A DNA stretch of 64,000 nt from Eunapius fragilis (lineage: Eukaryota > Porifera > Demospongiae > Spongillida > Spongillidae). The notes under the pieces were generated by a model. It searched no databases and was not told the origin of the DNA. It saw only the letters and a list, made by a program, of their open reading frames with translations. How positions within the stretch are numbered: the stretch's first letter is position 1; every line of letters starts with the position of its first letter. The stretch lies in contig OY811974.1 in the NCBI GenBank assembly GCA_963681505.1, forward strand, positions 5,278,395 to 5,342,394. Direction: 5' to 3'. The translations under genes were made by a program, and so were the position numbers. Shown here piece after piece: positions 5,524 through 57,036 of the stretch.

Positions 5524-5644
5524 CAGTGGCGGGGTGGCTGGGGGGGGCAAACCTGCGTACATTCGCATATTTGTCAGTATTTTCTAGTATACTGGTGATT
5601 ATGCGGAGAAATACTGGTTTGCCCCCGCAGCCACACCGCCACTG
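5524..5644. mobile_element. hAT-type MITE, 121 bp
   Basis: Inverted ends of about 28 bp (CAGTGGCGG...GGGGGCAAACC and its inverse) surround a short centre. The flanks are ggtttgta (5516-5523) and ggtctgta (5645-5652): an 8-bp target duplication with one mismatch. A CAGTG start and 8-bp duplication are typical of hAT elements. Confidence 0.75.
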
Positions 5645-5659
5645 GGTCTGTACACAAGT

Positions 5660-5669
5660 GCACACACAT

Positions 5670-5746
<77 letters not shown>
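5660..5746. repeat. (CA)n microsatellite
   Basis: About 40 CA units, followed by the satellite motif ctcccagctcttttcctggg. Confidence 0.95.
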
Positions 5747-5749
<3 letters not shown>

Positions 5750-6087
5750 CCACACTCCCAGCTCTTTTCCTGGGGCATATATTACTAATATTATATTCAT
5801 CCCCAAAGCCTATGTACATATGTGGTTGTGTATTCGTCTGCCTACATGTACCTTTATCTGATTGTGGGTTACTTGTTGAGGTCTCTATTTTTTATTACAG
5901 GGATGAAAAAGGAAAAAGTAGATGGTATCTCCCAGCTAGCTAGGTGATGAAGAGAAGCTTACTGTGACCACCCAAATATTGTACTGACACCTGTGCTCTC
6001 TTCAGGATGGTGGATGGCCTGTAAAAAGGTTGCTCTGGTTGTGAGTTTCATCTCTAAGCACTGTGTATGCCAATTCCCTCCTCCCTT

Positions 6088-6168
6088 CTGAAGGGCTTAG
6101 TGCAGGAGGACGTGTGGGGCACTCTGCCTTTCGTAGGGGGAGCAGGGGCATGGGACTAAGCCCTTCAG
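6088..6168. repeat. Short inverted repeat
   Basis: Perfect 14-bp arms (ctgaagggcttagt / actaagcccttcag) at 6088-6101 and 6155-6168, with partly matching GA/CT-rich flanks. Between 5750 and 7080 I see no gene, only this repeat and a TG tract at about 6499-6549. Confidence 0.6.
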
Positions 6169-6516
6169 AGAGGAGGATGGGGTTGGGACATGTAAATATA
6201 CAGAAGGGGTTGGGAAGCGTAGAGGCAGTAAGCCTTCAAAGGATACTACTACATCCATTGTCCCTCCCCTACATGTGTGATCAGATGATAAGGGTAATGT
6301 GGTTGTAGGAATGAGGTCACGTTATCAGCTGCAGTTTTTATAGCCTGGTAGTTCACTAGTCTGAGAAAACACTGGTTAAAATAGCAATGGAGTTTAGAAG
6401 TACCTTTCACAACTATACTTAAATGCTTTTTATTTGCATCTTGCATTTGTTTTATCATGAGGGCTATTGAATGTGTTCCACCTCTACACATTGTATGTGT
6501 GCTTGTGTGTTTGTGT

Positions 6517-6552
<36 letters not shown>

Positions 6553-7079
6553 TGTCCATGCCATTGGGAATGAACCATTGACAATATTACCCTCTTCCCA
6601 CTCAATAGATTATTGTCCCACCATGGCAATGAGGAAATAAGACATCCTGTGCAGCTGTCACTGGAAGCTATATGTAGTTCCATTCTTATTGCCTTCTTGT
6701 GAACATATTTATAAAGTTTTATGGTTATTGACTAAGTTGTTATTGATATCTTAAAAGCACACTTACAATGTTGGAGACATGCGGCAATTTTGGGCTAGGT
6801 TAGCCTTCTCAAGCACAGGCAGATCTTTTCTGTCACCCCCAGTGACTCCATTGTTTTGGTATAGACTAAAGCTCTTTAAATGGGAGGAGCCATTTTTGCT
6901 ACAAATGAAATGATCAACAAGCTGCAGTGGTGACAAACCTTTATTTCAGAATTACATAGACATGAACATGATGTCACCGAAATAGCTATCGTTCTATTGC
7001 ATGAACTGAGGTTACACTCTGGGACCTTGGGACTGTTGGACATCATGATTTTGGTTCATCACATTTGACACTACAATCA

Positions 7080-7080
<1 letters not shown>

Positions 7081-7116
<36 letters not shown>

Positions 7117-7507
7117 CTGTGTGCTTTGTGTATGTACATGTATGTGTGTTGTGTGTGAATATACATGTGCATGTGTGGTATGTGATGTGTGTCAGTATAG
7201 TGATATACATGTGTGCATGTGTTTACATGCATGAGCAAATAATTCACATCAAGCCAGCTGCTGCTTACCTCACCGTACAGTATGAGCTTGTTGTTAGGAA
7301 GCAGCACATTGGTCTCGTCTGATGAATGTCTTAAATCCCCTCCAGTCATTTCCTAGGGACAAAGCTATATACCCTCTGACCAGAAGAGCTATAACATATA
7401 CAATGCACCCACACCTAACACACACAAAAACACACATATACATGCGCATAGTCGACGTGCACATACACAAACACACATACACACAAACACACACACACAC
7501 ACACACA
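7081..7507. repeat. TG tract (7081-7115) and CA-rich tract (7418-7507)
   Basis: Dinucleotide tracts of opposite polarity about 300 bp apart. Short frames through them are low-complexity. From 7508 to 8150 there is one 70-codon minus-strand frame (7809-8021) with ordinary composition and no recognised homology. I do not call it a gene. Confidence 0.85.
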
Positions 7508-8149
7508 GAACATACACCAAAAGAACTCAGTGATGTTAAGGCATTTTTTGCAGTTATTAAATTTAATTACTAATTTGAGGACTGTATTGGAATAATGGTT
7601 TTCACTTAGTCTGATAAGTTATAAATCATCTTAATATTTCCTGAGAATGTACTTAGGTTGTATAATATATGAAGTAAATTTGGTGTCATGGCAACCAAGT
7701 GCGCGCGCGCTGCAACGCTTTTTAAGTTGCCCATTTTTTTACGCATTTTTGCGTTATGCGGATGCTAAAACGCATCGTACTACGACTCTTTTTCACATAG
7801 GTGGATAGCTACTGACGAGTGGTATAAGAATCCGTTTGGTGTGGTGGTCCTACCACTATGTTTGTCTTAGAACACCGAAAAAGGTCTCCTTTTTGGATGT
7901 GACAGTAGTATTTAATTGCTGTACGAACGTCGTAGTTATTGCATATTGTATCTAAATCTTGTATTCCACTCAAATCTCTAATATTCAAGGTACCTTGAAT
8001 GATAGGATGTTTGTATTTCACACTTTTGTAAGCGTTGATGTGTCCGCAAAATGAATTGAAAAATTACGGTTCGTTTCGTGCGGCCATTTATGAGGCTGTA
8101 ACTAGGGTGTGTGGCTTTGCTTCCGTAACAACCAATCATTTTGTATATG

Positions 8150-11449: not shown

Positions 11450-13352
11450 ATGGACGGAATGGATTTGGTTGCGTAAGATCGGTACAAGCAGAAGTTGGAG
11501 TCTGTAGGGCTGCTGTTAAGTGACGATCCTTACTTAGAATCGAACGATGGTCGCTTTAGTGACGATATGTCGTTGTGGCCTCGTGTTGAGTATGGGCATA
11601 TTTTTGCCTACTTCATCAAACGTCCTGGCACTTATACTCAGGAGCAGCTCCTTTCATGGAAGCAGCTTGAAGCATACAATTTCTTTGAATCTGGCTACGT
11701 AAGGACTGTTTACGCAATGGCATTTGGGCAAGGCGTCCGAAAGTGCATTTTGCTGAAAGCCAAAGTCAATCCTAGTCAGCGCTCACCTGATGATGTTCGT
11801 GAAGCTTGGATAATAGCAAAGCCTGACGGCTCTATTGTCTCTGCTCATTGCACGTGCATGGCTGGGTAAGTATACTTTCAATCTTAAAATGAAAAATAAC
11901 TACCAGTGCTACCCCATTAAATTTCTATTCCAGCCTAGGAGAAGGCTGTTCTCACATAGCTGCAGTGATGTTCAAGGTTGAGTGCGCTGTGAGGCTTGGT
12001 TACACTTCGTCTACCTCACAAATCTGCAAATGGAACAGTACATTTTGCTCAAAGGTTAATGTATAGTGTGAAGATGTCTTTAAATTACTGTCACATACAT
12101 GTAGGTGGAACCAGCTCTTATTGCAGATATAGAATTCAAACGACCTAAGCTGTCTAAGCCAGCTAGCAGTAAATGCAACAGTGTGCAAAATGAAGAACCT
12201 ACTGGGAGTTTAAAAGGCACTGTAACACAGCCAGAGCTTGAAAAACAATTTCTATCCAACTTAAAGGAGGCTTTTCCTGATGCTGTCATATTCTCCTCAG
12301 TACTAAAAAGGCCACCAAGTACAGATTTTCATTCTACGACTCCAATTATTCAAAAGCTACCACCTCCGTTAACATCCTTGCATAATGTAGTGTGCAACAA
12401 GATGACTCCAGAAGAGCTCTTTTCAGAATGTGAAAATGTTTTCAGCAGCAGGCTGGTTATTACAAAGGAAGAAGCACTGTATTTGGAAGAAGCTACTAGG
12501 CTACAATCACAGTCTATCCTGTGGCATAAGCACCGTGTAGGCCGCATAACAGCTTCAAAATTTTTTGCAGTGGCTCATACATCCATCAATTCTCCATCAC
12601 GATCACTGATCAAGGGTCTGATGGAAATGAAGGTCCAGTCATATAGTAAAGTAAAGTCCCTAATGTGGGGAATTGAGAATGAACACATAGCACGAGAACA
12701 GTATTTAGAACAGATGAAGGATAAGCACACTGGACTGCTATGCACTTCAAGTGGACTTCGTGTAAATCCAAAATATCCTCACCTTGGAGCAACACCTGAT
12801 GGAGTTGTGAAATGTGACTGTTGTGGAGATGGTATTATTGAAATAAAATGTCCGTACAAACACCAACAAAGTCACCGACATAATGTGAAAGATAACAAAT
12901 TCTGCCTTGAACAGGTAAATGGCCAAATGCTCTTGAAAAAAACTCACGAGTACTACTACCAGATTCAAGGACAATTAGCCATATGCGAAATGGAGTATTG
13001 TGACTTTGTCTGCTGGACGCCTCATGGGATGCACATTGAACGTATTGTGCCTGATACACTACTGTTCAAAACCATTAAGCCGTCTCTTGATGCATTCTTT
13101 GTCACAGTGTTACTACCCATGCTCATTACTGGTAGAACACAGCAGGATCATATGCAAGGCAGTGAAGCCACAGCTCATGTATCTGATGAAAAGGAAACCT
13201 ACTGCTGGTGCAATGGAATTGATGAAGGTCCAATGGTTGCTTGTGACAACACCCAATGTCCACGACAATGGTTTCATTTTGAATGTGTGGGTCTAGAGCG
13301 CAAACCACGAGGAAAGTGGTACTGCTGTGGTATGTGCAGGCATGAGCAATAA
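11450..13352 (+). CDS. SWIM zinc finger / YqaJ-like nuclease / PHD-finger protein of the ISL2EU-like element (one nonsense codon)
   Basis: Three exons: 11450-11865, 11934-12054 and 12105-13352; phases agree (1,785 nt). A SWIM finger spans the first splice (CTCMAG, then LGEGCSHIAA). A YqaJ-type PD-(D/E)XK nuclease follows: WHKHRVGRITASKF, LGATPDGV, then GIIEIKCPY, and YYQIQGQLAI. The protein ends in a PHD finger (CWCNGIDEGPMVACD ... WYCCGMC). YqaJ enzymes are phage-type exonucleases that assist recombination; here it is probably an accessory transposition protein. The ATG at 11450 is followed eight codons later by an in-frame TAA (11474-11476), after which coding continues without a break. Either this copy is mutated or translation starts later. 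Confidence 0.82.
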
Positions 13353-13459
13353 TTTCAAGCCGGCACGGATTCCGTTCATACATAATCACTATTTATTACT
13401 TATTTCATGTATGGATGTAGTTCATTGTAATCACTGTTTCTTGTAATGCTTCATCTACA

Positions 13460-14926
13460 TTATTCAGAATACACAACACTATGACACAGATTGACTAATG
13501 CAGCACACACAGTCACAATTTTGTCAATAAGTGATGTTCCACTTCCATCATTGCATCTTAAAATTGAAACAGGTATGGTTGACTGAAGAATGGTGTATTT
13601 ATTCTTTAGCAGTCCAATCACCCTTTCAATATGAATCATAACTTTAGATATTCTCTGTGAATATTCCACCTCATCCATAGATAGTTGTTTTTTTCCATGA
13701 GTGAAGGAAGGTATAACAAGCTTGCCACCGTATATTGCAAAATCATCGTGAATATCAAAACCCCTGTCAGCCAGTACCACATCACCAGGTTCAAGGAATT
13801 GTAAAAAACCACTATCCATGGTAATCAATTTGTCTGTAGCTCTACCACCCCAACACTTAGACAAAAAACAGATGGCACCGCATGGTGTTATTCCAAGCAA
13901 AAACTTTGCTGTGTTGTGTTTTTTATAGTTGGAGTATGTTTTTGCCCGTGCCTGGTACGAATAAGGTCGCTCTGTAAAGATTTCTGTGCAATCTATGATG
14001 CACCTTGCTTTGGGGTATAAGTCCTTGAAAATCTGAGGCATGTTGGCACAGCAAGTTTCTCGATCAGGCCATTGTATTAAAAATTTTAGATGAATGAACA
14101 TTGCATCTACCCATGCCACAAATATCTTAGAGACAGTGGCATTGCTAATCCCAAACCTGTAAGCAAGGTCTTGTACCAAAAGGCCAAGTCGTAGTCTCAT
14201 TAAGGTGAGTAATAACCGGTCAGCCTCAAGTAGCTGATCATGTAGTCTTGGACTCTTCTTAATGGCCAGAGTAGGAGAGGATAACAAGAGATGTGATAAT
14301 ACTATGCCAAAAACAGCACTGGTGGGTAGTCCTGTGTAAAACTTAACAGCCTCATCATGTGTTGCTATATCACTGTATCTAAATGATACAGGGTATGTTT
14401 GTGTATCGGAACATATCTTTTCCTTTTCTGCTGTTTGTGTTTCTGAAGTCTGAATATCGATGGCTACCTGTGTTCCTGCGTCACACATGAACTGTGAGTC
14501 TTGCAAGAGCAACAGACCTTCCGCTGCCTCACGACGATTCTCTTTTTCACGCTCACTGGCCTCCAAATTCTCTCTTCGAGATTTAACTCGCATCTGTCGC
14601 TCAAGTTGCATTTGTGTCGTGCCCTGCTTCCTAAAAGAGAACACTGTCGGAATGTAGTCTATGTCACTTCGATCGTCAACAGGTTTCCCTGAACAAGATA
14701 CAAGTAACAACACTTACTTTCGCGGATAAACTATACCTGATACAAAATGGTCCCCACAGACTCGTGAGTGCACTGTTGGCGTCCACTTCTCTCTTCTCAT
14801 CGCCTGGATCCATTTCAGCCTTCTGGCATGATCCTTTGTTGGAAAGCGATAGAACCCAAGACCAGGACGTTCACCATGGCGATTTTTGCAGCCAAACGAA
14901 CAACAACTAACAACCATCCCATACAA
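13460..14926 (-). CDS. THAP-domain DDE transposase (ISL2EU-like)
   Basis: Two exons, 14926-14737 and 14688-13460, with a 48-bp intron in phase 1: 472 residues. Exon 1 is a THAP C2CH DNA-binding finger (CCSFGC ... RVCGDHFVSG). After a charged linker comes a helix-turn-helix (LAYRFGISNATVSKIFVAWV). The DDE endonuclease domain (DDE_Tnp_4) then shows its three acidic residues in context: ARCIIDCTEIF, GDVVLADRGFDI and MIHIERVIGLLK. The frame is intact to the stop. The THAP finger would bind the element's ends and the DDE domain would cut and join DNA in the nucleus. The neighbouring convergent YqaJ gene is its usual partner in this superfamily. Confidence 0.9.
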
Positions 14927-22752: not shown

Positions 22753-23326
22753 AATAAGGAAAGATCAAAAAGCAACGTCGCTATGTATGTCTGCTAAGCC
22801 AGTTATCCCTGAGGTAACATTTTTGAAAAAACGTAAAAGACTAAACGATCGATAGGCTATGCTTTCACAGTTGTATTTATACCTGAAAATCAAAATCAAG
22901 TTGATCTTTTACCCTTTTGTTCACGTTACATTTCTGTTCTCACTGACTTCACCTTAGGACACCTGCATTATCAATTGGCAGATGTGCCGCCAAACTCCAC
23001 ACATGAAACTGTCTTCGACTCAGATTGCATCCAGCGAATGTGTGGGCTTATGTCCAGAAAGTTGTCCGCAAAGCCTGCATCTGTCTCATCGAATGAGTAA
23101 AAATACAGCAGAAAAGAAGGTACACCTACATTTGTGATGTCATTAATGTAGTTTTGTGTGTGCATGTGTGTGTGTGTGTGCACATAAATTATTTTGGTTT
23201 ATACAAGTGTACATGTGTATACTACATGTAGGTACACTGTATCCTGGCTAGGGTCACACCATTACATTGTATGTCATCATACATTATAGAATGGTTCCAC
23301 ACATGTATCCATCAACATCCTTACAG

Positions 23327-35259: not shown

Positions 35260-38200
35260 AGTCACTAGATCTGGTGCTCCCTTGCCAGGATGGCTCTGGC
35301 AATGGATCTAGCCAAAGTGAAATTCAACCTGCCGTAAATGTCTGCCAAGGTGGAAGGTTTGGGAGAGGGCATGCTGATTGCAAGGTGGGATGATCCTCCT
35401 TACCCCAGTTGCAGAAGGTCTCCACTGCTAAGGGAATGCAAGTCCACCCCAATTCTTGACATTTGGGGCCATTGCTGAGTAGCTTACGGGTCTCCGCTGC
35501 TGTAGAAGCTGCACCAGACATTCAACATGAATCCCTCAGTATGGCTGGGCAGAGAGGTGACGTTACTGTGACGTCAAACGCTGCAGGCTTTCCCCAACCT
35601 GCAATGAGCACATCAGCAGGTCTGGTGTGGTTGTGGTCCCTGGTAAGACCATGGCCCTTCTCCACGGTCACACTTAGATGAGCTCGCCGACAGAAATCGA
35701 CAATGACATCACGCAAGTGATTATGCCTAACCACCACATCTCCCCCATGCCTGCATGTTGCCCAGGGGATCAAGGGCAACCTTTGGGCAAAAGGGACACA
35801 CAGACCTACCAACACCCTCACCTAGCCACCACCTCAACGCGATCTGGAACTCATTGGGCTCCATATGTAAACCTAAGCCCTTGGAAGGGACCACTGATAG
35901 CCATGAAGGTGAATGAGGGGCTGATATAGACAGCAGTTTGGCCTTGTTGGCTGGGGAGGAAGCCTCTAATAATTTGAATTGCTCCTCATCAATCTTGCTG
36001 GAAAGCTCTCTCTGAGGAATGGGAGAAGCAAGGACAGACTCAACTGTGATTGCGTTATAAGAGGCGACTTTGGAGTTATAGGCCGTAACTGCCTGCTGAA
36101 GATGGAGATTGTGCAATTTGCCCAGGCTCGATGAAGAAAGTGAGGAAATGAAGGCAGCAGCAGCATGGCATGAGAGACAACGAAGGCCTAAGCCCCCGAA
36201 CCTCAAACTAAGCTGAGCCTGTTTCCAGGCCGTATCTGAGACTTCAATAGCTGAGCTGAGCACAAAACACTGCCTCACATCTTCATCGAAGGACACTAGG
36301 GCATCTGAAGCCAGACTAGGGGGAGTGACCCTGGTTAGGTGGACCATTTTGCAAAACCCTCCACACATGCGCAGTAATGTAAATGCCACCTGGAGATCAA
36401 CTCCAGCCACATCCACCAGACTTGAGAGTAATTTCTTGGATTCAGCGCACTTGTCAGCAATAAATTTGGAACAGTGTAAATAGTCGCCAACAGGAGCACC
36501 ATATTTGGTAGAAGGGAGAACTTTACAGCTGGTGGGAAAGAGGTGTTACCTTTACTGCTGAAGAGCTCACACTTGGCATAGTTGATGTGCAGACCCAGAG
36601 CAGGTCCCATCTCTTCAATGATGTGCATGGCCCGCAACACAGCTGGACGGTCTCCAGCTAAGACACTATCATCAAGATACCATGCCTGGTAGAGAAGGTC
36701 CACACATTCATCATCAGCATCCACACTGGAAATTAGTTTCTCCAAGACAAGTGAAAAAAGTAAGGGACCCAGTGGATCCCCCTGTTGAACCCCTGATTCT
36801 AAACTGATTTGACCTAGGGGGTGCCATAACAAAGGATGTGACCCATAACACCAAGATACCCATGGCAGAAGTTCAGGGAAAAACGTGGCACATTCATCCA
36901 CCACCGCCTGTCTGGAGACAACATTAAAAGCATTTTTCATGTCTACCTTGAATGCTACAAAGTCATCATCACCCCAGTGCTCCTCTATACAGATCTTCAA
37001 CCCATGGGTAACTTTTTCTGCCCCTGCACCACCAAATTGCAGAGGCTGAAAGAAATCAGCCGCCTTGACCTTCAACAAAGCACACATGCATTTCCCAACA
37101 AGTCTTCGTAATGTTTCCCCCACAGCAATGGGCCGTATGTCAGGTGCACATCCCTCCTTGTTCTTGTTTAGTGCGATTAGGGATCCCCCAGCCAGAAACC
37201 TTGACACTAAAGTGGGGGCCTTCCCTGCTGCCAGGATATTGATGACTAACCTAGGGGATGTGCATATGGGAGTGGGAAGAGGGATGCTAGCCACATCAAG
37301 CAGGTGTTGGACTCGTAAGCCGGGACAGAGAGGATGTTAAAGTCAGGCTGCAGTACAATAACTTCTGTATCCAGGACAGCTGGAACTACTGGTACAGGGC
37401 AGCTGAGGTGTTTTGCTTTCAAAAGTTGCCATGTGTTCTCATTGTTGGGAGCAATACCACTTGACTGCAGGAACAGACAAGCTTTCCCAAACATGCCAGA
37501 TCTGCCCAGAGAGATGGCCCTGTCAATGTTGTTAGTGCACTGGTGAATGGAAGAGGTGCTTTGGTGGATGTGGCTGATTGCCCTGCCTTTGGCCAAGTTC
37601 CAAAGTGAGCGCACGTCATTATCTGTCCACATGTTGCACAAGGTATCCACTGGGGGAGCCTTGTCATGACGTCCCTGGCACCTATGTGAAGGAAGAACAC
37701 ACTTTGGGAGCATAAAAAGTTTAAGCCATGCATCCTCAGAGTTCTCATGAATGACACTTTTTAATGCTGATGACAATGCTCGGGCAAAAGTGGGCCTGGA
37801 TCTTGAAGGAATGAAGCGTAAGGTGGGCTGGTTAAGGAGGCACACTTCCTCAAATGTAGGGAGGCTTGGTTCAGGTTGGTGGAGGGGTGGGGCTTCTACA
37901 GGTGGATTGTCAACAAGCATGGGTGTGTCTTCTGAACCTCGGACAGCATCTGCTCCTTCTACACACTTTTTGGAATGTGCGGATAGCCTGGAGTTGGAAA
38001 CCAGCTGAACACAACCGCGGCAGATGTGGAGGTCATTCTCCTCCAGCCAGGTGATTAGCACAATACCAGGCAGTACACCTTGCGCATGAAGTGTCATATG
38101 AGCTTTCCACATGGAGGGAGCAATCAATTCTGGGCACCCTACGACAATACACTGCTTCCTCTGTTGCTGCCTAGTTGTCTGGAGACAGGGCTGAGTTTGG

Positions 38201-45900: not shown

Positions 45901-48900
45901 ACCTCATTTAATAATGTACTAAAATGGTTATTACAATTAGTTGTCCCATAAAAGCGTCAACCTGAATAACTTTAAAACAAATTGTGGTTGTAAATGTTGA
46001 TGACTCACTATTGAATGGAGTACCTTGAAATTAGAGCTGTTCAGTTCACCACATAATTCAGATCTTGTTACTTATTACAGTAGTTATTTAAACCGATTAC
46101 CTCTCACCATAATTTGAATAAGTAATAAAAGACTTTGAATATTTTGATTTATTTACAATTATACTTAACCGCTTACAATAATTGAAATCTCATTGTATTC
46201 TTAGTACGTGTATGTGTACGCACAAACACACACACGGTGCACACACACACACACGCACACACACACATGCAAAATGCCATTTACCTCCCACTCATATTAG
46301 GCCGGGCCTAGGTGATAATAAATTATGAAGGACTAAACACTGTAATCACGTGATGTGTATCTGGCTGGCATTACCACACAAAATTTAGATATGCATGATT
46401 GTGTATTAATAATAATAATTTGTACATCAAATTGCAAACCACACAAGTGCTTATTGTGAGGAATTGTTTCAAAGAACCCTTCGGGCTTGCAATACAAAAC
46501 ATTTTATTGTCATAATGCTTTATTAGATATTCAAACCCATTTGTCATGTGTCTGTTATTACAGTATCATTGAAATTGACACCAATAGAGTATATGTCATG
46601 TAGCATAGGCAGCATCTGCTTTAAAAGTTGTGCTGTTTCACCATTTGAGACCACTTGTATATCAGAAGAGTCATCCTCCTCTCTGCTCTCATTAACATCT
46701 AACACATCTGTGTATAGTACAAGGCATCTTTGAAACCATTCCTTAGTTTTGTAAGTGTATGTTTTTATTTGTTGTACATATTAATATTATTATCATAATT
46801 ACACAATCACGTATACCCAAGTAAAAATGGCTTGCTTGTGGCAAGCTTGCAGCAACCTTGTTTACAAGGTTGTTTGAACCCTGTAACAAGGTTGTTTGAA
46901 CCATGTAACAAGGTTGTTTAAACCATGTAAACAAGCTTGTTTTTGCTTGTCACTACTAAGTATTTGAAACTGTTCCAACCTTGTTACAACCTGTTGTTAA
47001 GTTGTTGTGAGCCAAAACAAGGTTGTTAATTAATATCCAAAACAACGTTGTCTGAGAATGTTAAATAGTCATACAATGTCACAGCACCAGGTGAAAAAAA
47101 GCACAAAAAAATGCAAAACAGCTAAATGCAAAAAGCAAATAAGAAAAATGCAAAGGAGCACTGCGCCACAGCATTTAGTATGCAGAGTTGTGCAGAGTCT
47201 GCATACCAACCATGTGCAGATGAGTATTGTTGAAGTGTTCGTATGCAGACGCCTGCATATGAACACTTCAATGATATCCGTCTGCATATGGTTGGTATGC
47301 AGACTCTGCACAGCTCTGCATACTAAATGCTGTGGCGCAGTGGAGTCCAACTACAAACATTCATTGACGACTGCGTTGCTTGACTTGTCATTCACACTTG
47401 TGTTGGTATTCCGTTTTCGTCTAAAATTCGCACACTTATCATTTATGGCATCCACTAATAGGCTTCTATTGATCTTATGTTGTGACTGCACAAAGCCTGT
47501 AGGTAATAAGGACTATATAAATGAAAGAAGTGCATACAATTAGTAAACTTACGTATACAAGCAGCTATTACATCTCTGTTGAGGCATGGAAATTTTCTTG
47601 TACCCCCACAACTTGACGAAGCCAAGACAGATGGCGTAAAAAATACAGTAAGGAGATTTCTTATCAGCTTAGTAGGCGAGTTATTGCTCTGGTCTATCGC
47701 TTCTTCCAGCTGGCGTTTAGAAAGATACACCCCATAGCCCTCTACTAATTCAACCTACAAGTATTACCTTATTTGACTTGTGTAAATGCAACAAAATTTT
47801 CACATACCTGCACATGTCTTTTCACACCACCAATAGGTGACTGACTGCGACCAATGGAGGCATTGGAACAGACAACTGGTGAAGGTGATCTCACAGAAGA
47901 CTGACTACGACGAAGAGAGGCATTGGAACGGACAACTGGTGAAGGTGATCTCACAGATGACTGACTACGACCAAGAGAGGCATTGGAACGGACAACTGGT
48001 GAAGATGATCTCACAGATGACTGACTACAACCAAGAGAGGCATTGGAACGGACAGCTGGTGAAGGTGATCTCACAGAAGACTGACTACGACGAAGAGAGG
48101 CATTGGAACTGACAACTGGTGAAGCTGATCTCACAGAAGACTGACTACGACCAAGAGAGGCATTGGAACGGACAACTGGTGAAGGTGATCTCACAGACGA
48201 CTGACTACGACCAAGAGAGGCATTGGAACTGACAACTGGTGAAGGTGATCTCACAGAAGGCTGACTACGACCAACTAGGGCAGGTGATCCAGCTGGAAAT
48301 GAGAATGGTGACTGATCAGTCTGGTGGTGTGCCTGCAAAAGAATGACATGTAGTTAATTAATGATTAGCTTGTGTAATTACAACAAATTATTACCTCATC
48401 CGCAGTGGTTGTAAAAGAGTTAACATCATCCACAGTATCTAGGAGTTGCACCTAAATGCATGGAAATCAGATTACAATTACATTAACATGTAAAAATCAA
48501 CTCACAGAAACATCGCCATGATTGAGTGTGGTCCCTCTCATTTCATTCGATTGGTACACAATAGTACGAGTAACTATAAAAAGACATTATTCCATCATTA
48601 TACCATGCATGCTTTACACTTGCACTTGAAAGTTGTTTTGTAATGTGCATTCACAAACAAGTACATGTATACACTTATTTTTCTCACCACGCTGCTTTCC
48701 CATCATGTGGTGATGAAAAATGTCTTTGTGGGCTAGTATGCGCTCATGTCCGGAGATTTTTTTTTTCTTCTTTGATGGTCTCTCAATTGGATCCAACTTT
48801 GTAGGTGTCGTAGAATGAACTTTTGTCGCAGCACTTTCAAGAAGTTCATCACGTGTGATCTCCATAGCAATTAGCTGATCAATTTTCTTCTCTAGATCTC

Positions 48901-51900
48901 GACGATCACCTGAATTGAAATATAGATAAACCAGCTCTAGGACCTAGTTCACAGAGTGTATTTTATCTTACAGTATATTTATTTCATTGTTATTCATTTT
49001 TGACATGACATCATATTCATTCAATCCATGCAGGCATGATCCATCGTAGTGTCTATTAATTGTCCTGATCGAATTTCACCCAGGTGTACAGCAAAAAAAG
49101 TGTTGATAGAAAGGACCTATACTTGCATTTAATGATACTGGCTTAGGGTAGCGTAGGTAGTGGTCGCCACCCGCGAGTGCCGATATCGGTTGTCTTGAAT
49201 ATACAGCTAACAGGAAGGATAATTATACAAACATACCTGACCCCAAGAGATCGTCAGCTATCACTCTATACTACTAGCGCTTCGTTTATCAAAAAACGTG
49301 CTCTGTACGAAAGAAAACAACTGTTTTATCCAATTAAGCGGATTTCTGGTATAGTCGCCAGTGCGGTTGGTCTGTCGCCACGTACGGTTGGAGTGCTCGC
49401 CACCCCCCTGTATTTGGTTGTTACGTAGCGCATGGAAGGTGGATTGTAACACAACATTGCTCAACCAAGTTATCAAGTATGGAGCAGCCTTTAACCACAC
49501 CAGGAAAGCTTCACTTTGTATTTGTTACTAGTATAGGAGGCGACCATTCATTCATACTAATAAACACTTCTTTTACTACCGAAATTGTACATACAGCTAA
49601 GGATTGAAGTATATGTATCGTTATAAGATAGTGTCATGCCAATATTAATTAGCTACTGTAATATTATGGTTGCTGAGAAGATGGATCAGGTTACAAATGA
49701 TATGTGATCAACAATGGCATAGTGCCTTATCAGGCTCCATGTTTTAGATGTCACATAACAAGTTTTTATTTTTGTTTTTTAATTGAGAGATGCAGCATTC
49801 CCCCTCTGAATGGCAACAGAAAACCTTTGCAGGAGGTATGCTAGAGAGCTTTTGCCACCAGTGGTGTTTGCTATGCGGTGACCCAAGTCTGATAGGAAAG
49901 AAATGGAGCGACACTCCAGTTGTTTCAAAGGCAACAGGTGTGAAGGAATGGTATGCATGGGAGGTGAGGTAATTGTACTTCTTGATCTTGGTCTGCTCTG
50001 CTTGGTTTGCTGTTGCACATAATTCAGAGGCTGTCATGGATAGATGGGAAGTGGCAAAAGTGTCTACGCAGATTGCATCCCAAACCAACAATTCGATTCG
50101 ACCATGGTACCATGGTGATTCCATCAGGATGTTTACCATCTGATCAAGACCAGTGGGCTCTAGCCGAGAGGGAACATTGACAGAGGAAAAAGCCCTGTGC
50201 AGAATATCCTTCATTCTGCATGTCATGGTAGAAGTGGCGGCCAGCACTAAAACGACAACTGTGTGTGCTGAGCATGTCCACATTTGATCCACAGTGGTGG
50301 CAAATGTGAGCGATGCAAAGTGGGGTCCCCAGACAAAGGCCAATGGTTATGCAGATATAGTGTTATCATCCATGCGAAGGCCCAGGGATGCATACTACCC
50401 TCCCTCACTTCCTTCAGAGCTGCATCCATGCTCTCAGCTGAATTCTCACTCCATTACAGAACACTACAGTATGATATTACTTCATTTTATGCATGTACAG
50501 CATATGTAAGCTAGGTCTAAGTTCAAGATAATCTTTTCTCTGTATTTGCAGAAGTAGCTGTGTTCTCTCCAGCTCAGCTTGATATGCTATAGGCCTACAT
50601 TTAATAGGCTTTTAGCTGAAAGGACCGCATGCGGAATGAGATACAACCCGTTATGTACCCCTATGGCGAACACTCCTCCACAAAATACAAACATCAAACG
50701 CTTAGCAATCAAGATATAGGACACATTTGGGAGCCGAATGGTTGCCAATTTAAGCCTAAAGACATAATTTGTGGAGGTAGGAGTAGTCGCCACCCCTGGC
50801 GACTACTACTTACGAGCGTAAATTCAGTTGGAGTGTTCGCCACCCTCACTAATTCTTGAGTCATAAGGTTTCTTTTAAAACAAAGCTAAGTACACTGTAC
50901 AGAAATAACTGCTCTTCTATAATAGCACGATTTTACGCCAATCTGTGCTACATACTTCGCTAACACTCACTTGCACCAATAGAACCCGCCAGCAATTGTG
51001 CGGTGTTTACCGCGCCATTTTACCTATAAATGAGGTAGCTAACTTTGTTTAATTATTTTGCAAAAACGTTAATAGTAAATAAAACTTGAACAAAGTGCCG
51101 TAAACACTGAGTCCCAGGAGTATTACTTCCATTTTGTGCCAAGACATACAAACGTTAGGTAAGCCCTAGCGCCACGTTTGAAAGGAAGAGTGGCAAGCAC
51201 TCCTGCACTGGCGACCATACCTGACGCTACCCTATTGTACAAGTCCATGCATTTAGGATTGGGCCGAGACAACTAATGCTTAACTACTTGTAAAACAAGA
51301 AGTGCTGGCGGACATATCCACTAGCACTACGAGTATCAAAAGGAGTAAAGCGTTAGTTATCTTGGCCCGATCCTAAAATGACTAGCTTGTACAATAAGCC
51401 AGTCGCTCTAGCAAGGAGGAAAAGGTCAGCAGACCGCTCTTCCATCGCCTTGCGCGATATTAACTTACCTGTACTTAGGGACCGTAAACTACACAATCGC
51501 CTAAACCAATTCGTACAGTACTTCATACATAAGTACATCATCATTTCTCTTTCAGTCACACATTCTTACGTATTCTTACCAGATTTTGCGAGCACTTCAC
51601 CATCATAAAGCTTTTTCCCACACCATTTGAACTGTGATATAGCTCCCACGTACGTTTGGCCACCTTGTCGGACGGTTTTCTCAGAAATGACGCTCAACAT
51701 TTCGTCGTCAAGCCATCTTACTAACAGAAAACTCGGACACGGGAGCGATGTCATCGGAACTATGGCTCTGCTTTCAACCATGCCAATTGAAAATAAAACA
51801 TGTGAAGCCTCACGTGCTCGTTAATAAGTTGTTCTTTTTTTTTGAAATGGCGGGTGCAAGTAGACGAGTACACAACTCAATCCAATTTCAGTTTTCAGAC

Positions 51901-54900
51901 CCTCTGTCAAAACTTGCGACAAGCAGAACTACACGCTACAGGATAAAGAAGAAACGGCGTTGTGACATGGCTATTGGGGAAGCTGGTCAGCAAACTACTG
52001 TAAATGCAGACTGTGAGTGTGCGGAACACGTAGAACAGAATGATAAGCAAGAAGCCTATACAACCGTGACAGATGAGCCATTCAATGTCCCTGAAAATGA
52101 TGTAATGCTTGAGCAGCATGATGTAATGCTTGAGCAGCATTTTGTACCGATTTTACGTGATTTACCCGAAGAGCCAGAATTTTTACCAAATGATTATTCC
52201 AATCCAAGCAATTTCTCAGAGTGTTTAGCCGATGACGAATTACCCAGGGAGACAGAATTTATTCCAGGTGTGTGTCGTGATGAACAAGTTGATTCATTGA
52301 GTTCTGAACCATCAGAATCCAATGTACTCTTAATGCAATACATCTTGCGACACAATTTAACACAGGAAGCTATATCAGACCTTCTTAAACTTCTTCACAT
52401 TTTCATGCCAAAAATAGACTTGCCCTCATCTGTATATATGTTCAATAAGCCTTTTATGGCAATGAACTTTCCTCTTGAGTTTCATTATTTTTGTAATAAC
52501 TGTATGCAAGATATTTCCAAATATGCACAGCACTGCCCTAAATGTAAAGCCACACTACTATCTAAAGGATCGAGATCAACGTTTGTAGAGCTTCCATTGG
52601 AGTTGCAATTGCAAAATGTATTACAAAGTAACATGCATGTGCATCATATTTGTGTGCTAGCGAGATCTGTATACATGCGATGTGTATGAATGTATTACTT
52701 ATATCTGCATGTATAATCATGATCTATATAGCTATAGTGTGCATTATAATAATCATGATAATTTTTTTGTACAGGATGTTGGGAAGATATACATCAGATG
52801 TATCATTTCCGTTGTGAAAAAAGAAGTCATTACTGTGATGTGTATGATGGTGCTTTGTATCGCGCACTGATTAAGGATGGATTTCTAAGCAACAAAAATA
52901 ACGTATCATTCACCCTAAATGCAGATGGTGTTCCAGTGTTTAAATCGTCATCCTTCTCATTGTGGCCAATCTACCTTCAAATAAATGAGTTTCCTATTAA
53001 AAAAAGGTACACTGACATATTATACTTCCGCCCATGCATGCATGCAGGTATTTTATTATCATTATTTAATTCGATCAGTATACATGTGCTTATACCATGT
53101 ATGGTTTAATTATTTATGCATCTAAATTGTTCAGATTGATTGAAAACATATTTTTCTTGCATGCAGGCACTTAATAGAGAACAGACTGGTAGCAGGTCTC
53201 TGGTATGGAAAAGGAAAACCAGAGATGACTTTTGTATTAAGATATTTAGGTGACACCTTGGCAAAGTTATACTCTGAAGGTATGTATACATGCATGTGTG
53301 TGCATATATATACTAGACTACAGTAATTTGTGTGTCATATCTATATGCGTAGGTGTTGAAGTTACATTAAACGGAGATAGTCACATCCATTTCAGAAGTC
53401 AAGCAGTGCTTTTAGCTTGTACATGTGATTTACCAGCAAGAGCTCTGCTCACAAATATGGTGCAATTTAATGGTTATTATGCATGCCTGCGTTGCACTCA
53501 AAAAGGCAAGTATTTTTATAAATTCACATATTTTCAATAATGAGTACAGTTATCCTAAATTTAATTACTACTTTTTTAAGGAGCAGTAGTTAAAACAGCA
53601 AATAATGGACAAGTGATGACCTTTCCATATCAACTTGAAGATCCAACAGGACCAATGAGAACCTGTGAGCAGTACTGGCAAAATGCAGCTGATGCTGTAC
53701 TTTCTGGATCTCCTGTGGGTAGATTTGATATTCATATACAACATATATATATATACAGTTAATTGTATCTATGTGTTACTTGCATATAGGTCCGTGGTAT
53801 TAAAGGGCCTTCATGGTTGGCAACCATTCCACGGTTTAATATTATTAAGGGTGTCAGCTTTGATTACATGCACATTGGGTGTCTTGGAATAACTCGATTT
53901 CTACTGCATCTTTGGTTTGATTCAACCCATTCTAAGCAACCATGGTATCTCCGATGTCACATTAAAGAAATAGATAGATTATTGTGTGCCATTACTCCAC
54001 CTGATGAAATATTAAGAGCACCAAGAAGTATTGAAGGAACCTTGAATTATTGGAAAGGTACAAGTGTATATATATACATGTTTGTGTGTAATGCCTGCAT
54101 GCAGATAGGTGTGTTTACATGCATGTATGTGTTTGCACTGCGCAGCATACGAACTAAGAACATGGTTTCTACACTACAGCCCTGTAGTACTGCACAGATT
54201 TTTGCATAGCGACTATTACCAACATCATCTCTTATTTGTGGAAGGCATATATTTATTGTTGAAAGACACTGTGGAGGAAGAAGACATCTCAAAAAGTGGA
54301 GAACTATTAATGCACTACACCTATCTTTTTCCGGTTCTGTATGGTAATTAACCGTTTTCATGCATTCAGTTTATTCCTCGCATTTATCATAAAAGCATGT
54401 ATGTGTATGTCTACATGTATATTTGTGATAGGTGAAAGATACAGTTCAATGAATCTCCATGGACTTATACATCTTCCAGATGTAGTGAAGTCATTGGGTC
54501 CACTTTGGGCTCATTCATGTTTTCCGTTTGAGTCTGCAAATGGTGAAATGTTGAAGCTATTTCATGGAACAACATGTGTTGAAAAGCAGGTATACATCTC
54601 ATATGTGTTATGATAAGTTAATTTTTACCACTTGTTTATAAATCAGATTGCTAATTGTATTGGAGTAATATCAACGTTACCACTGCTTGGTAAAAAAATT
54701 GCTACTGGAAGCAAAGAGGAAGAACTTTTTTGGAAAATGTCTAACTCTTATGGAAGGAGTAAAAGGTATAGTATTGTTTGATATGTGCTTTTTATTGCTG
54801 CATCTGTTTTATCCAATGCAGCCATTGCAATTTCATATCAGCTGATATCTGTATGCATGGAAAACCATGTGGCACTGAGCTTACCCAAGAGCACATTGCT

Positions 54901-57036
54901 GTATTTACCAAAGGTGGTTTTGCAATCCCAGCTGATTATCCTGTTGTGTTGTACTCCAAAATACATTTCAGAAGCACTGGCAGAATAGTGAAAACTAAAA
55001 GAAAGTTACACAAAGGCCTTCTTCGTAATAATTCTGGAATCGTATTCTGCGATCAAGATGGCATGACATGTTATGGAGAGTTATTACTGGTTGTACTATG
55101 TGAGAATCATGATGCATATGCAATTGTCTTCCCTTTTATTCCAACTGGAGAAATTCTGAGTAACGATTCTGTCACAGATTGCTCCATTGACCAACACATT
55201 ACAAAGCTAAATCTGCCGTACGTTTAACATAGCTATAGTATACATTATATTTAAAATGGTAATACTTTCATTTTAAATATGTAGTTCAGTGACTGGACTC
55301 AAGAAGTGCATACCTATAAAATGTATCAAGGACAAGTGCATATTGATGCAGTATAAAGAAGATCACATCTATGCAAGTATATTTCCCAACTCAAAAGAAG
55401 TTGAATAGATTTATACATGTTTACTTGAACATATACTTGTGCATAATTTGAACAACATTCATGTTCTTTTGTAATGTTATGTAAAGTACAAACATTGTGC
55501 ATGACAGTATGTAATCACTTCATTTTTGCTTTTTGAGAGTTAATTGTCATCATGTATCCAGCTCATATTGCATGGCAATTTGATCATGTATTTATGATTT
55601 AAATAGAGCGACATCTAAGTATATCTGTAGTAAATTAAGAATTACATGTAAATTAACATCTTCGAATCTGTTGCCTCCCTTGGTGATGCATCCATGCATG
55701 CATTCAATGATGATAAACTTCTACAGTACAATCTTGTCATAAACAGCATTAATTAATCTTACAATCCCCTACAACCTTCTACAACCATATAGTAAGCTTG
55801 TCATATGAACTGCCTTAAACAATTCTACAACCAACTACTACCTTCTACAACCATAAGACAAGCTTGTCATAAATCCCACAACCTGTCTGCAACCTTCCAC
55901 AACTATTAAACAACCATGTTTATCTTACAAGGTTGTAAACAAGGTTGCAGCAACCATGTGGCAAGGTTGTCACAAGCTTGCCATTTTTACTTGGGTATCT
56001 AAGTTTTGTATGCTACAACTGGAGTTACGGTTATGCCAGCCAGATACACCCTCTGAAGTAATCTTCAAACATAACATAGGTGTTAATATGGGTTACTTAC
56101 ATGTACCGATAGCAATTCCCACCATTGCATCATCCATAAAGCATGAGTCCACGAACCTATCACCACTGAAAGGAACAACAAAGGTGATTGCAGTGTTTTG
56201 TCTTTCATAATTTATTAGCACCCAGCCTAATATCTGAGTGTGGCAGGAATGGCATCTATACCAACGCTAAAACAAATATCCAAATGGATTTCAAATGGGT
56301 GTCAGATAAAAGGATGAATTGGGTATCTGTAGTGGCATGATTGATTTTGTAGAATAGCAGTATAATTTAGCATACACTGTGGAACAATTGCTTCATTCCA
56401 GCGATGATGCACCATGTTTTTTTCAGTTTGTACCTGAGTACTGACTGGATCCTTTTGTGTTGCTGCTATGTAACAATGTTCATTGACACCATTGTAGGCT
56501 ATGGATGCACACTTACTTGAATTACTTACATCCAAGAACCATGCTTTATCATTTCCATGATTCTACACTATATGTCAAAGACGAGGAGTTTTAATACTGA
56601 TTGTAATATCTGTAGCAGTATGATTATAAGGAACATATATATTTAGTGCTGTAATAATCATTAATGACATAGTTTAATTATAGAAAACTGAAATGCAACA
56701 ATACATGTATCTATATGGAAACTGTGTCCACTTTCATGCTTAGCTGTCATAATTACTCTTTGTTTGAACAAAGGGTCTCTGCATGCAATCTCTCATTTGC
56801 GCAACTTTCTTTTTTGTAATCAACAGGCTGAATGTAAACTTCATGGAAGTTCAAGCTCAAATCCACAACTACCACCCTCTCCTCCTGAGCTGTCACACTC
56901 ACCAACTCAGTCACCCTCACCTCCTGAACAGTCACCCTCACCTACTAAACAGTCATTCTCACCTCCTGAACAGTCACACTCACCGACTCAGTCACCCTCA
57001 CCTCCCATGACTCCTGATGGCACAGGAGGGGAATGA
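42933..57036 (+). CDS. Type I membrane receptor/adhesion protein: Ig-like + FN3 + TM + Pro-rich tail (5' exons not found)
   Basis: Exons: 42933-43249 (Ig-like, phase 1-1, FNCSGSGKFLNWRVDG ... ITVICTVLD); 43844-44218 (fibronectin type III, PPPQQFNVSS ... IQFTLFAVNGAGDGNST, many N-glycosylation sites); 44423-44518 (Ser/Thr/Pro stalk); 44565-44663 (membrane helix, ILPVTVVVVAAVAMVIILVV then basic YIRKIK); 45218-45290 and 45354-45447 (cytoplasmic, with NNIYVRSS). The proposed last exon, 56827-57036, has SPSPPEQ repeats ending GTGGE and a stop; attattaaa-type signal at 57151. Phases agree throughout, including across the 11.4-kb last intron that holds the BEN/TNP2 transposon. Linking the last exon is inference. 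Likely a cell-surface recognition molecule; ligand unknown. Confidence 0.72.
45480..46270. repeat. A/T-rich degenerate tandem repeat with CA tract
   Basis: Phrases such as 'ataatgctaa.tga.cact.caat', 'ataaagttt' and 'aaatggtgt.tttta.ttcatt' recur several times (45.6-46.15 kb), followed by a CA-rich run at about 46222-46267. Within the receptor intron. Confidence 0.6.
46557..46745 (-). other. Possible minus-strand exon, unknown
   Basis: A 62-codon open stretch of normal composition (WFQRCLVLYTDVLDVNESRE, ... QLLKQMLPMLHDIYSIGVNF), with AG before and GTAATA after on the minus strand. It lies just outside the left end of the BEN/TNP2 element. No homology recognised. Confidence 0.35.
46840..47050. 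promoter_or_regulatory. Left subterminal repeat array
   Basis: About nine copies of aaggttgt/acaacctt-like motifs in both orientations (caaggttgtttgaacc repeated three times). They mirror the right array at 55730-55985 and are likely binding sites for element-encoded proteins. Confidence 0.7.
47159..47342. mobile_element. CACTG-type palindromic MITE, 184 bp
   Basis: Arms of about 85 bp beginning CACTGCGCCACAGC, flanked by gag (47156-47158, 47343-47345): the 3-bp duplication and CACTG start of EnSpm/CACTA MITEs. It ends 8 bp beyond the BEN gene stop codon and so forms part of its 3' UTR. Confidence 0.88.
47351..51781 (-). CDS. BEN-domain protein encoded by the transposon
   Basis: Seven exons: 51781 (or 51754)-51580, 48909-48688, 48573-48506, 48451-48395, 48332-47808, 47754-47553 and 47496-47351. 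Every junction is GT-AG and phase-consistent, giving 473 aa (464 from the second ATG). Exon 1 encodes FLLVRWLDDEMLSV...KWCGKKLYDGEVLAKSG, the N-terminal module common in BEN proteins. Exon 2 is basic (PSKKKKKISGHERILAHKD). The large exon has seven 20-residue SSVRSPSPVVRSNASLGRSQ-like repeats. The last two exons form a BEN domain (VELVEGYGVYLSKRQLEEAI, SPTKLIRNLLTVFFTPSVLA, CLNRDVIAACI). BEN domains bind DNA or chromatin proteins. Inference: it recognises the element's terminal arrays. Confidence 0.85.
47870..48290 (-). repeat. 60-bp coding tandem repeat (Ser/Pro/Arg)
   Basis: Seven units of 60 bp, in frame, inside the BEN gene (ggtgatctcacagaagactg + actacgaccaagagaggcat). Units differ by few bases, so expansion is recent. 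The encoded RSxSPV motifs could be phosphorylation sites in a disordered linker. Confidence 0.93.
49744..50430 (-). pseudogene. LINE fragment, C-terminal nuclease-like domain
   Basis: The minus-strand frame contains LLVWDAICVDTFATSHLS and FTPVAFETTGV, matching the C-terminal restriction-like domain region of the RT family seen at 35 kb but from a different subfamily. An upstream piece (50429-50247) is in another frame. The reverse transcriptase is absent, so this is a dead fragment. Confidence 0.7.
51235..51394. mobile_element. MITE, 160 bp, TA target
   Basis: Ends TTGTACAAG / CTTGTACAA, then arms of about 45 bp in total (ttaggattgggccgagac vs its near-inverse). TA on both sides (51233-51234, 51395-51396). 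It landed inside the right terminal repeat of the 49137-51403 element. Confidence 0.78.
51782..51846. promoter_or_regulatory. Bidirectional promoter region between BEN and transposase genes
   Basis: Only 65 bp separate the first BEN ATG (51781, minus) from the chosen transposase ATG (51847, plus). Both UTRs or the shared core promoter must overlap coding starts. An upstream plus-strand ATG at 51748 is in frame with the transposase, but its extension overlaps BEN codons and looks non-conserved. No clear TATA box. Confidence 0.55.
51847..55408 (+). CDS. TNP2/EnSpm-like DDE transposase
   Basis: Eleven exons: 51847-52627, 52775-53006, 53167-53279, 53353-53505 (GC donor), 53581-53714, 53790-54057, 54146-54343, 54432-54589, 54647-54765, 54822-55217 and 55285-55408. 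The sum is 2,676 nt, 891 aa, every phase consistent. The N-terminus has a Cys4 finger (FCNNCMQDISKYAQHCPKC). The core shows family signatures: CDVYDGALYRAL, LNADGVPVFKSSSFSLWPI, ACTCDLPARALLTNMVQFNG, CLRCTQKG, SFDYMHIGCLGITRFLL, NLHGLIHLPDVVKSLGPLWA and PFESANGEMLKLFHGTTC. It ends LKKCIPIKC...IFPNSKEVE. Such enzymes excise and insert DNA by an RNase H-fold DDE mechanism in the nucleus. No stop or frameshift was seen, so the gene could be active. Confidence 0.9.
55730..55985. promoter_or_regulatory. Right subterminal repeat array
   Basis: Repeated ctacaaccttctacaacca and acaagcttgtcat motifs, then ttacaaggttgtaaacaagg next to the terminal repeat. Counterpart of the left array. Confidence 0.7.
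55997..56826 (-). other. Possible minus-strand exons, unknown
   Basis: An open minus-strand stretch at 56575-56302 of normal composition (AWFLDVSNSSKCASIAYNGV, EHCYIAATQKDPVSTQ). A second is near 56180-56105 between ttttcag and gtaagt (GDRFVDSCFMDDAMVGIAIG). They could belong with the 46557-46745 exon to a minus-strand gene lying inside the receptor intron. No homology recognised. Confidence 0.3.

Follow-up and report, generated by a model that had tools for sequence, protein, structure and literature searches.

A TRC-type transposon with a BEN-type gene as candidate second factor in the sponge Eunapius fragilis

Introduction

The division of labour between two proteins is classical in plant CACTA/EnSpm transposons. 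Elements such as Spm and Tgmt* have a TNP2 transposase, short inverted ends, subterminal arrays and a second protein, TNPA, which recognises the subterminal repeats (PMC2613891). TnpA of maize Spm is the model for such a second factor (PMC2613891, PMC1636069), and different CACTA elements may have second proteins that are not homologous to each other (PMC2613891). The second factor of animal elements is obscure. DeMarco et al. (2006) described animal TRC elements as having CCC ends, 2-bp duplications and a Transposase_21 protein; in the passages cited here, the extra proteins of one of them, SmTRC1, are products of alternative splicing with no detectable similarity to others (PMC1636069). Here we describe a transposon from the sponge Eunapius fragilis (assembly GCA_963681505.1, contig OY811974.1, positions 5,278,395-5,342,394 of the forward strand; these 64,000 nt are the window) in which a Transposase_21 (TNP2) gene stands head to head with a divergent BEN-type gene. 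It is very probably a TRC-type transposon of the CACTA group with the BEN gene as an integral part. The overall best explanation, to which we assign a probability of about 0.7, is a TRC-type element with a DDE transposase and a BEN protein as end-binding second factor.

The genome searched for copies and relatives comprises 219 Mb in 24 contigs. The lists of genome hits are lower bounds, since scoring covered, for instance, 150 of 305 candidates in one search and 51 of 553 in another; the former, for Transposase_21, puts matches at no fewer than 150 places. A first-pass annotation, made from the letters of the window alone, had spoken of an animal lineage, and this is borne out by the seven Wnt matches that two contigs carry at three places (lowest E 1.4e-39). 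To our knowledge, Wnt genes are restricted to animals.

Ends, Target Duplication and Copies

What delimits the element? Its two ends are an exact inverted repeat, CCCAAGTAAAAATGGC, which at up to three mismatches has only two matches in the window, at 46816 (+) and 55995 (-). Two or more matches at this threshold occurred in 22 of 100 shuffles; genome-wide, the exact sequence has 37 copies as against none for the reversed control pattern. Similarity of the termini extends inward as 74-nt arms that are 72% complementary. Copies sharing these ends, which start with CCCAAGT and have the form CCC..GGG, are called family 1. The matching inverted ends noted in the first-pass annotation are therefore real.

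The same annotation had reported TA flanks. TA does stand on both sides of the window copy, but any dinucleotide can be duplicated and TA is no target rule: in all ten two-ended copies of family 1 the duplication is 2 bp long, never 3 bp, and the duplicated dinucleotides are CT, AA, AA, TA, TA, TT, TG, AC, TA and TT. This variety rules out membership of a TA-specific superfamily (Tc1/mariner, or ESTA with its obligatory TA). Empty sites, which the first-pass annotation had proposed as a check on the duplication, were looked for at two copies, that of C7 and that of the window. The flanks of the C7 copy, joined over a single TA, match four other C7 places over their whole length at 96-97% identity, and three of these read unbroken at the junction; insertion was thus precise. 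The best candidate for an empty site of the window copy is a paralogue with 77% identity and small indels near the junction, and the clean proof comes from the C7 copy.

In ten pairs, the two ends face each other within 12 kb. The BEN gene is inside all ten and the transposase gene inside nine; the tenth pair (L071, 4,160 bp) encloses the BEN gene and remnants of a transposase. The expectation that copies with the same ends carry both genes has thus held up, and same-ended copies, far from consistently lacking the BEN gene, all have it when two-ended. Among the 17 single exact ends, five are near both genes, one is near the BEN gene only and one near the transposase gene only. A host gene adjoining a transposon was considered and rejected on the strength of the 37 exact ends and the gene content of the two-ended copies. 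Two C4 copies are identical over the known 7,323 bp of each while their flanks differ; therefore, family 1 moved very recently. Such near-identical copies are material for a mobility assay. The copies at C6:7157237 and C6:7218125 (L062, L064) have a common left flank and probably belong to a duplicated stretch of the genome.

The first-pass annotation had called the element intact. Its boundaries were right, but the window copy is interrupted by a foreign insertion in the first BEN intron, which has internal repeats around GTCGCCACCC; the four copies whose reading spans this site (L069, L070, L071 and L072) all lack it. Other full copies measure 7.3-7.6 kb, compared with the 9180 bp of the window copy. 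A second insertion, a hairpin, is absent from L071 and L072 and present in L069 and L070. All coordinates are collected in Table 1.

Table 1. Parts of the transposon, in window positions
Feature	Position	Strand	Remarks
Left target duplication, TA	46814..46815		2-bp rule from 10/10 two-ended copies
Whole transposon	46816..55995		9180 bp including nested 2.1-kb insertion; exact inverted ends; 9 other two-ended genome copies
Left terminal inverted repeat CCCAAGTAAAAATGGC, 16 bp	46816..46831	+	exact match
Left array of ACAAGSTTGT near-palindromes	46852..47051		8 within first 260 bp
Hairpin insertion	47159..47342		90-nt arms, 91% complementary; just downstream of BEN stop codon
BEN-type gene, 7 exons, 473 aa	47351..51781	-	head to head with transposase gene; in 10/10 two-ended copies
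BEN gene exons	51781-51580, 48909-48688, 48573-48506, 48451-48395, 48332-47808, 47754-47553, 47496-47351	-	
BEN domain exons, NACC1-like	47351..47754	-	profile match to NACC1 BEN, E 2.8e-5
Exon with 60-bp tandem repeats	47808..48332	-	codes Ser/Arg/Pro-rich repeats
Nested foreign insertion, ~2,087 bp	49146..51232		in BEN intron 1; own inverted ends TAGGGTAGCGT
Transposase gene, 11 exons, 891 aa	51847..55408	+	exon model; Transposase_21 (TNP2), PF02992 E 1.9e-13
Transposase exons 1-6	51847-52627, 52775-53006, 53167-53279, 53353-53505, 53581-53714, 53790-54057	+	
Transposase exons 7-11	54146-54343, 54432-54589, 54647-54765, 54822-55217, 55285-55408	+	
Last two transposase exons, ~aa 719-891	54822..55408	+	match BAH-like C-terminal domain in P0001 model
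Right array of ACAAGSTTGT near-palindromes	55728..55981		8 within last 290 bp
Right terminal inverted repeat CCCAAGTAAAAATGGC, 16 bp	55980..55995	-	exact match
Right target duplication, TA	55996..55997		2-bp rule from 10/10 two-ended copies

The Transposase and the Classification of the Element

The transposase model splices in phase and is free of stop codons; one intron is GC-AG and the others are GT-AG. Its match to PF02992 (Transposase_21) lies above the cut-off. Transposases of the CACTA-Mirage-Chapaev group (CMC; with Transib, CMCT) have, besides the DDE catalytic residues, a C(2)C and an H(3-4)H motif that fall between the second D and the E (PMC12730594). The window transposase shows this pattern, and D311, D401, C420, C423, H636, H640 and E660 are invariant in 23 sequences. 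In the structure model of a relative, P0001, the core has the CMC fold, like RAG1 and Transib. The catalytic and zinc pattern, too, is shared with RAG1-RAG2, RAG-like elements and Transib. RAG1 has matching zinc residues; RAG and Transib differ from the window element in their ends, duplication length and partner gene. The C-terminal part of the P0001 model folds like a BAH domain, a reading of the transposase tail that sequence searches did not confirm. Viral contigs gave 38 pattern matches to the transposase, none of them confirmed as a relative. The domain match, the conserved residues and the RAG1-like fold of P0001 agree with the first-pass view of a TNP2-like transposase of the CACTA group.

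How should the element be classified? Since it combines CCC ends, a 2-bp duplication and Transposase_21, it is best filed as a TRC-type, CACTA-related (CMC group) cut-and-paste transposon, closest to animal TRC. The suggestion that its ends mark a distinct new group has to be dropped, because the same three features are those of TRC. CCC termini and 2-bp duplications like those of the window element are found in SmTRC1, in elements of Tribolium and Aedes and in Hydra Spongebob (PMC1636069, PMC4298943), and SmTRC1 shares the Transposase_21 protein (PMC1636069). The window element departs from SmTRC1 in that its second protein is the product of a divergent BEN gene. It is not a CACTA element in the strict sense, because it lacks both CACTA ends and a 3-bp duplication. 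Plant CACTA/EnSpm elements have termini CACTA or CAC..GTG and duplicate 3 bp, whereas family 1 has CCC and 2 bp; their second protein is a splice product of the same transcription unit, whereas here it is BEN-type and divergently transcribed. Fungal Plavaka and ESTA elements (CMCT) are alike in their transposase pattern and in 2-bp or TA duplications, but Plavaka termini are TGT or CATCA, the hosts are fungi, and the extra gene of some Plavaka/ESTA families encodes a TET/JBP dioxygenase (PMC12730594). The window element lacks the TGT..ACA termini of PlavakaA.

Among the papers listed by searches of the open-access literature, none links BEN to a CACTA-type element. As far as these searches show, what is new in an otherwise known TRC-type element is its BEN partner.

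The BEN-Type Gene

What does the second gene encode? Its model also splices in phase and without stops, so that both multi-exon genes of the first-pass annotation are confirmed in the window copy; they diverge, with 65 bp from one start codon to the other. The protein has an N-terminal exon and a repeat-rich middle, and the repeat alignments of the tandem-repeat exon differ between copies. BEN is the sole domain reported by a Pfam scan; no BTB domain was reported, a difference from NACC1 (NAC1). The BEN identity proposed in the first-pass annotation is weak from the window protein alone: its BEN segment taken separately reaches E 0.0087 and 16.7 bits against Pfam BEN, below the cut-off. A profile of five sequences, however, matches NACC1 BEN (8yzs, E 2.8e-5; 7bv9, E 4.4e-5) and nothing else to E 10. 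With respect to known BEN proteins (NACC1, BEND3/BANP), the window domain is thus tied to NACC1 by its profile, and a clearer BEN, above the Pfam cut-off, occurs in the second family described below.

With the whole BEN protein as query in a protein search, none of 7,991 scored candidates had E <=1, probably because the Ser/Arg repeats swamp the word search. A query without the repeats gave two fragments, P0121 and P0122, at E up to 10 among 1,076 candidates. The predicted structure of a single BEN exon frame was too poor to use (predicted local distance difference test, pLDDT, 44.6). Three relatives of the window BEN (C2:2926165, C2:10516971 and C16:2427340; 61-72% identical) have no scored transposase match within 12 kb. 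They may be BEN genes standing where the transposon is absent, a situation that the first-pass annotation had named as counting against its reading.

Substitution in the BEN gene is strongly constrained when it is compared with diverged relatives elsewhere in the genome: the ratio of non-synonymous to synonymous rates (dN/dS) is 0.20 over 123 codons, and 0.06-0.08 for the BEN exon over 66-68 codons, where dS is saturated. Against L071 the ratio is 0.49, or 0.65 where the alignment enters introns. The transposase gives 0.27-1.07 against near-identical copies.

Subterminal Arrays

The first-pass annotation had described motif arrays inside both ends, and the counts agree. At up to one mismatch, ACAAGSTTGT has 16 matches in the terminal 260 and 290 bp and a single one across the intervening 8630 bp. 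Shuffling the ends of the window element 1,000 times gave a mean of 0.25 matches; the motif was picked from these very ends, so the middle of the element is a fairer control than the shuffles. In the second family, CCAAGATCTTGG (up to two mismatches) occurs eight times in the terminal 420 bp and not at all in the 6,898 bp between. Each array motif is a palindrome or close to one, built around CAAG...CTTG. Palindromes are bound by the BEN domains of NAC1 (ACATGT) and of Insv and Elba1 (CCAATTGG), and NAC2 is reported, in the passage cited, to bind a non-palindromic site (PMC7764960).

Other Families with Both Genes

Is the pairing peculiar to family 1? A Pfam BEN search of the genome gave 29 matches to E 10, five of them above the cut-off, and led to family 2. 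Its representative, L082, measures 7,318 bp, has 28-bp exact inverted ends and a transposase frame at 5637-7532, and carries a BEN gene on the opposite strand that scores 26.3 bits to PF10523, above the cut-off. The model of this gene (BEN2) leaves out one repeat-like exon and is uncertain in the middle; dS is saturated in the comparison of its exon 12 with L106, which yields no ratio. Used as the only query, the BEN segment of family 2 hit no BEN structure, and the profile of this type that did match one included two other BEN-like frames. The end pattern occurs at 170 sites with up to one mismatch, 22 being exact among the 100 matches listed. Six pairs of exact ends enclose a BEN match in every case and a listed transposase match in five. 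Eight of ten further pairs (five full and five short copies) have a 3-bp duplication, in which family 2 differs from TRC; L082 itself has none.

In family 3 a CCC terminus, accompanied by palindromic arrays, was seen on the BEN side (L115). Ten exact termini all stand beside a BEN match, eight of them with a transposase match head to head; of two further termini with one mismatch, one stands beside a BEN match. CCC termini are thus present in family 2 and in the single known end of family 3 as well.

Across the genome, 28 head-to-head pairs of TNP2 and BEN matches lie within 12 kb (27 BEN loci), with two pairs in the same direction and two tail to tail. Random placement gave 0.53 head-to-head pairs on average and six at most, and chance neighbours are rejected on this count. 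The test used 171 transposase and 94 BEN loci, one row per locus from the lower-bound lists, without C21:3481039 and C6:6753952, which match the repeat part only; some contigs were set at 6.5 Mb in the random placement. Apart from these pairs, several multi-copy BEN families have the N-terminal part and the BEN domain in order and no scored transposase neighbour, for example at C3:7919702, C3:8097935 and C11:3254016.

A Second Factor for the Transposase?

How might the two proteins work together? The transposase would cut at the CCC termini and insert with a 2-bp stagger; the stagger is shown by the target duplications, the chemistry suggested by the fold and residues. The palindromic subterminal arrays are the probable binding place of the BEN protein, most likely in oligomeric form, which would mark and pair the ends for the transposase; the BEN protein may also regulate or un-silence the divergent promoter. 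It would then fill the TnpA role of maize Spm by means of another DNA-binding domain. On balance, it is slightly more likely than not that the BEN protein is the end-binding partner.

Several observations weigh against this reading. The whole window BEN protein falls below the PF10523 cut-off (E 0.1; 13.2 versus 23.2 bits), and the NAC1 motif ACATGT differs from the array motif. Between the window BEN gene and near-identical copies there are 7-9 non-synonymous and 0-2 synonymous differences in eight of ten comparisons, which does not look like purifying selection; the near-constant count may reflect changes private to the window copy. Under the window exon model, both C4 copies have two in-frame BEN stops, C1a has two transposase stops and L071 has one stop in each gene, and the BEN gene has gaps in C1a, C7 and L071; several copies in these comparisons are only partly known. 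Ten of the 17 single exact family-1 ends are near neither gene. In the lower-bound lists, no transposase match lies within 12 kb of 63 of the 94 BEN loci, and 142 of the 171 transposase loci lack a BEN match; some BEN genes may live outside TNP2 elements, and because most loci are partnerless the pair is not claimed for all TNP2 elements. Family 3 has 12 termini when one mismatch is allowed, of which that at C21:1369364 has no listed BEN match, and the transposase-side end of this family was not found, the BEN-side sequence not being repeated there. Finally, the family-1 BEN reaches a probability of only 0.5% (E 0.12) against a profile that combines BEN domains of the family-2 type with others, and BLAST between the N-terminal parts of the two types gave no match. 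With no profile match between the two types, a single origin of the pairing does not follow, and on sequence grounds repeated capture of BEN genes appears as possible as an old partnership.

Which other explanations would account for a BEN gene inside the element? It might be carried for regulation or escape from silencing, activating the promoter, opening chromatin or repressing host genes with no part in cutting, while the transposase alone recognises the ends. BEN proteins are described in literature abstracts as chromatin and transcription factors, maize TnpA also acts on its own promoter (PMC1636069), the modelled tail of P0001 appears BAH-like, and L071, which has lost most of its transposase, retains a BEN gene, albeit one that has a stop and gaps. 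However, the palindromic arrays stand at both ends, away from the central divergent promoter, which points to end binding, and a purely regulatory role is rather unlikely. The excess of non-synonymous differences among near-identical copies, the stops in some of them and the many BEN loci outside detected TNP2 elements would also suit the accidental capture of a host gene that was then multiplied as a passenger of no benefit to the element. Such a passenger is hard to reconcile with three families that have different BEN sequences in the same head-to-head order, with the low dN/dS at larger distance and with the retention of the gene in all ten two-ended copies of family 1, and we consider it improbable.

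That the BEN gene and the transposase gene belong to two independent elements, adjacent by chance, has practically no probability left: nesting does occur in the window copy, in the shape of the 2.1-kb insertion, but this is its only support, and the reading is refuted by the copy counts, with both genes inside the same ends in nine of ten two-ended copies and remnants in the tenth, and by precise empty sites for the whole unit. The TRC-type element with an end-binding BEN protein can be drawn further, as something possible rather than probable, into an animal CACTA-type lineage with the RAG1 fold in which each family has a BEN protein co-evolved with its own array code, the transposase has a BAH-like chromatin-reading tail, and the elements form a reservoir of BEN domains for animals.

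A recurrent, named DNA-binding domain makes the question of the second factor testable, with predicted binding sites in the element ends. BEN is familiar from chromatin regulators and insulators, and its recurrence here ties it to mobile DNA. For RAG1-RAG2, the element offers a point of comparison, a transposase of RAG1 fold that has a partner protein. RAG1 is derived from a transposon (PMC12730594); if the wider picture is true, animals would owe BEN chromatin factors to BEN-TNP2 elements as a source or reservoir, in the way that RAG1 goes back to RAG-like transposons.

Other Features of the Window

A frame with a YqaJ nuclease and a weak PHD-finger match (Pfam) lies at 12105-13352 (+), tail to tail with a DDE_Tnp_4/HTH_Tnp_4 transposase frame (Pfam) at 13460-14713 (-). 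From their domains, 12105-14713 is possibly another two-protein transposon, presumably of the ISL2EU/Harbinger kind. A fragment of a eukaryotic large-subunit rRNA gene occupies 22817-23173 on the minus strand (126 bits), and a reverse transcriptase frame is found at 36335-37336, also on the minus strand (RVT_1, E 4.3e-14).
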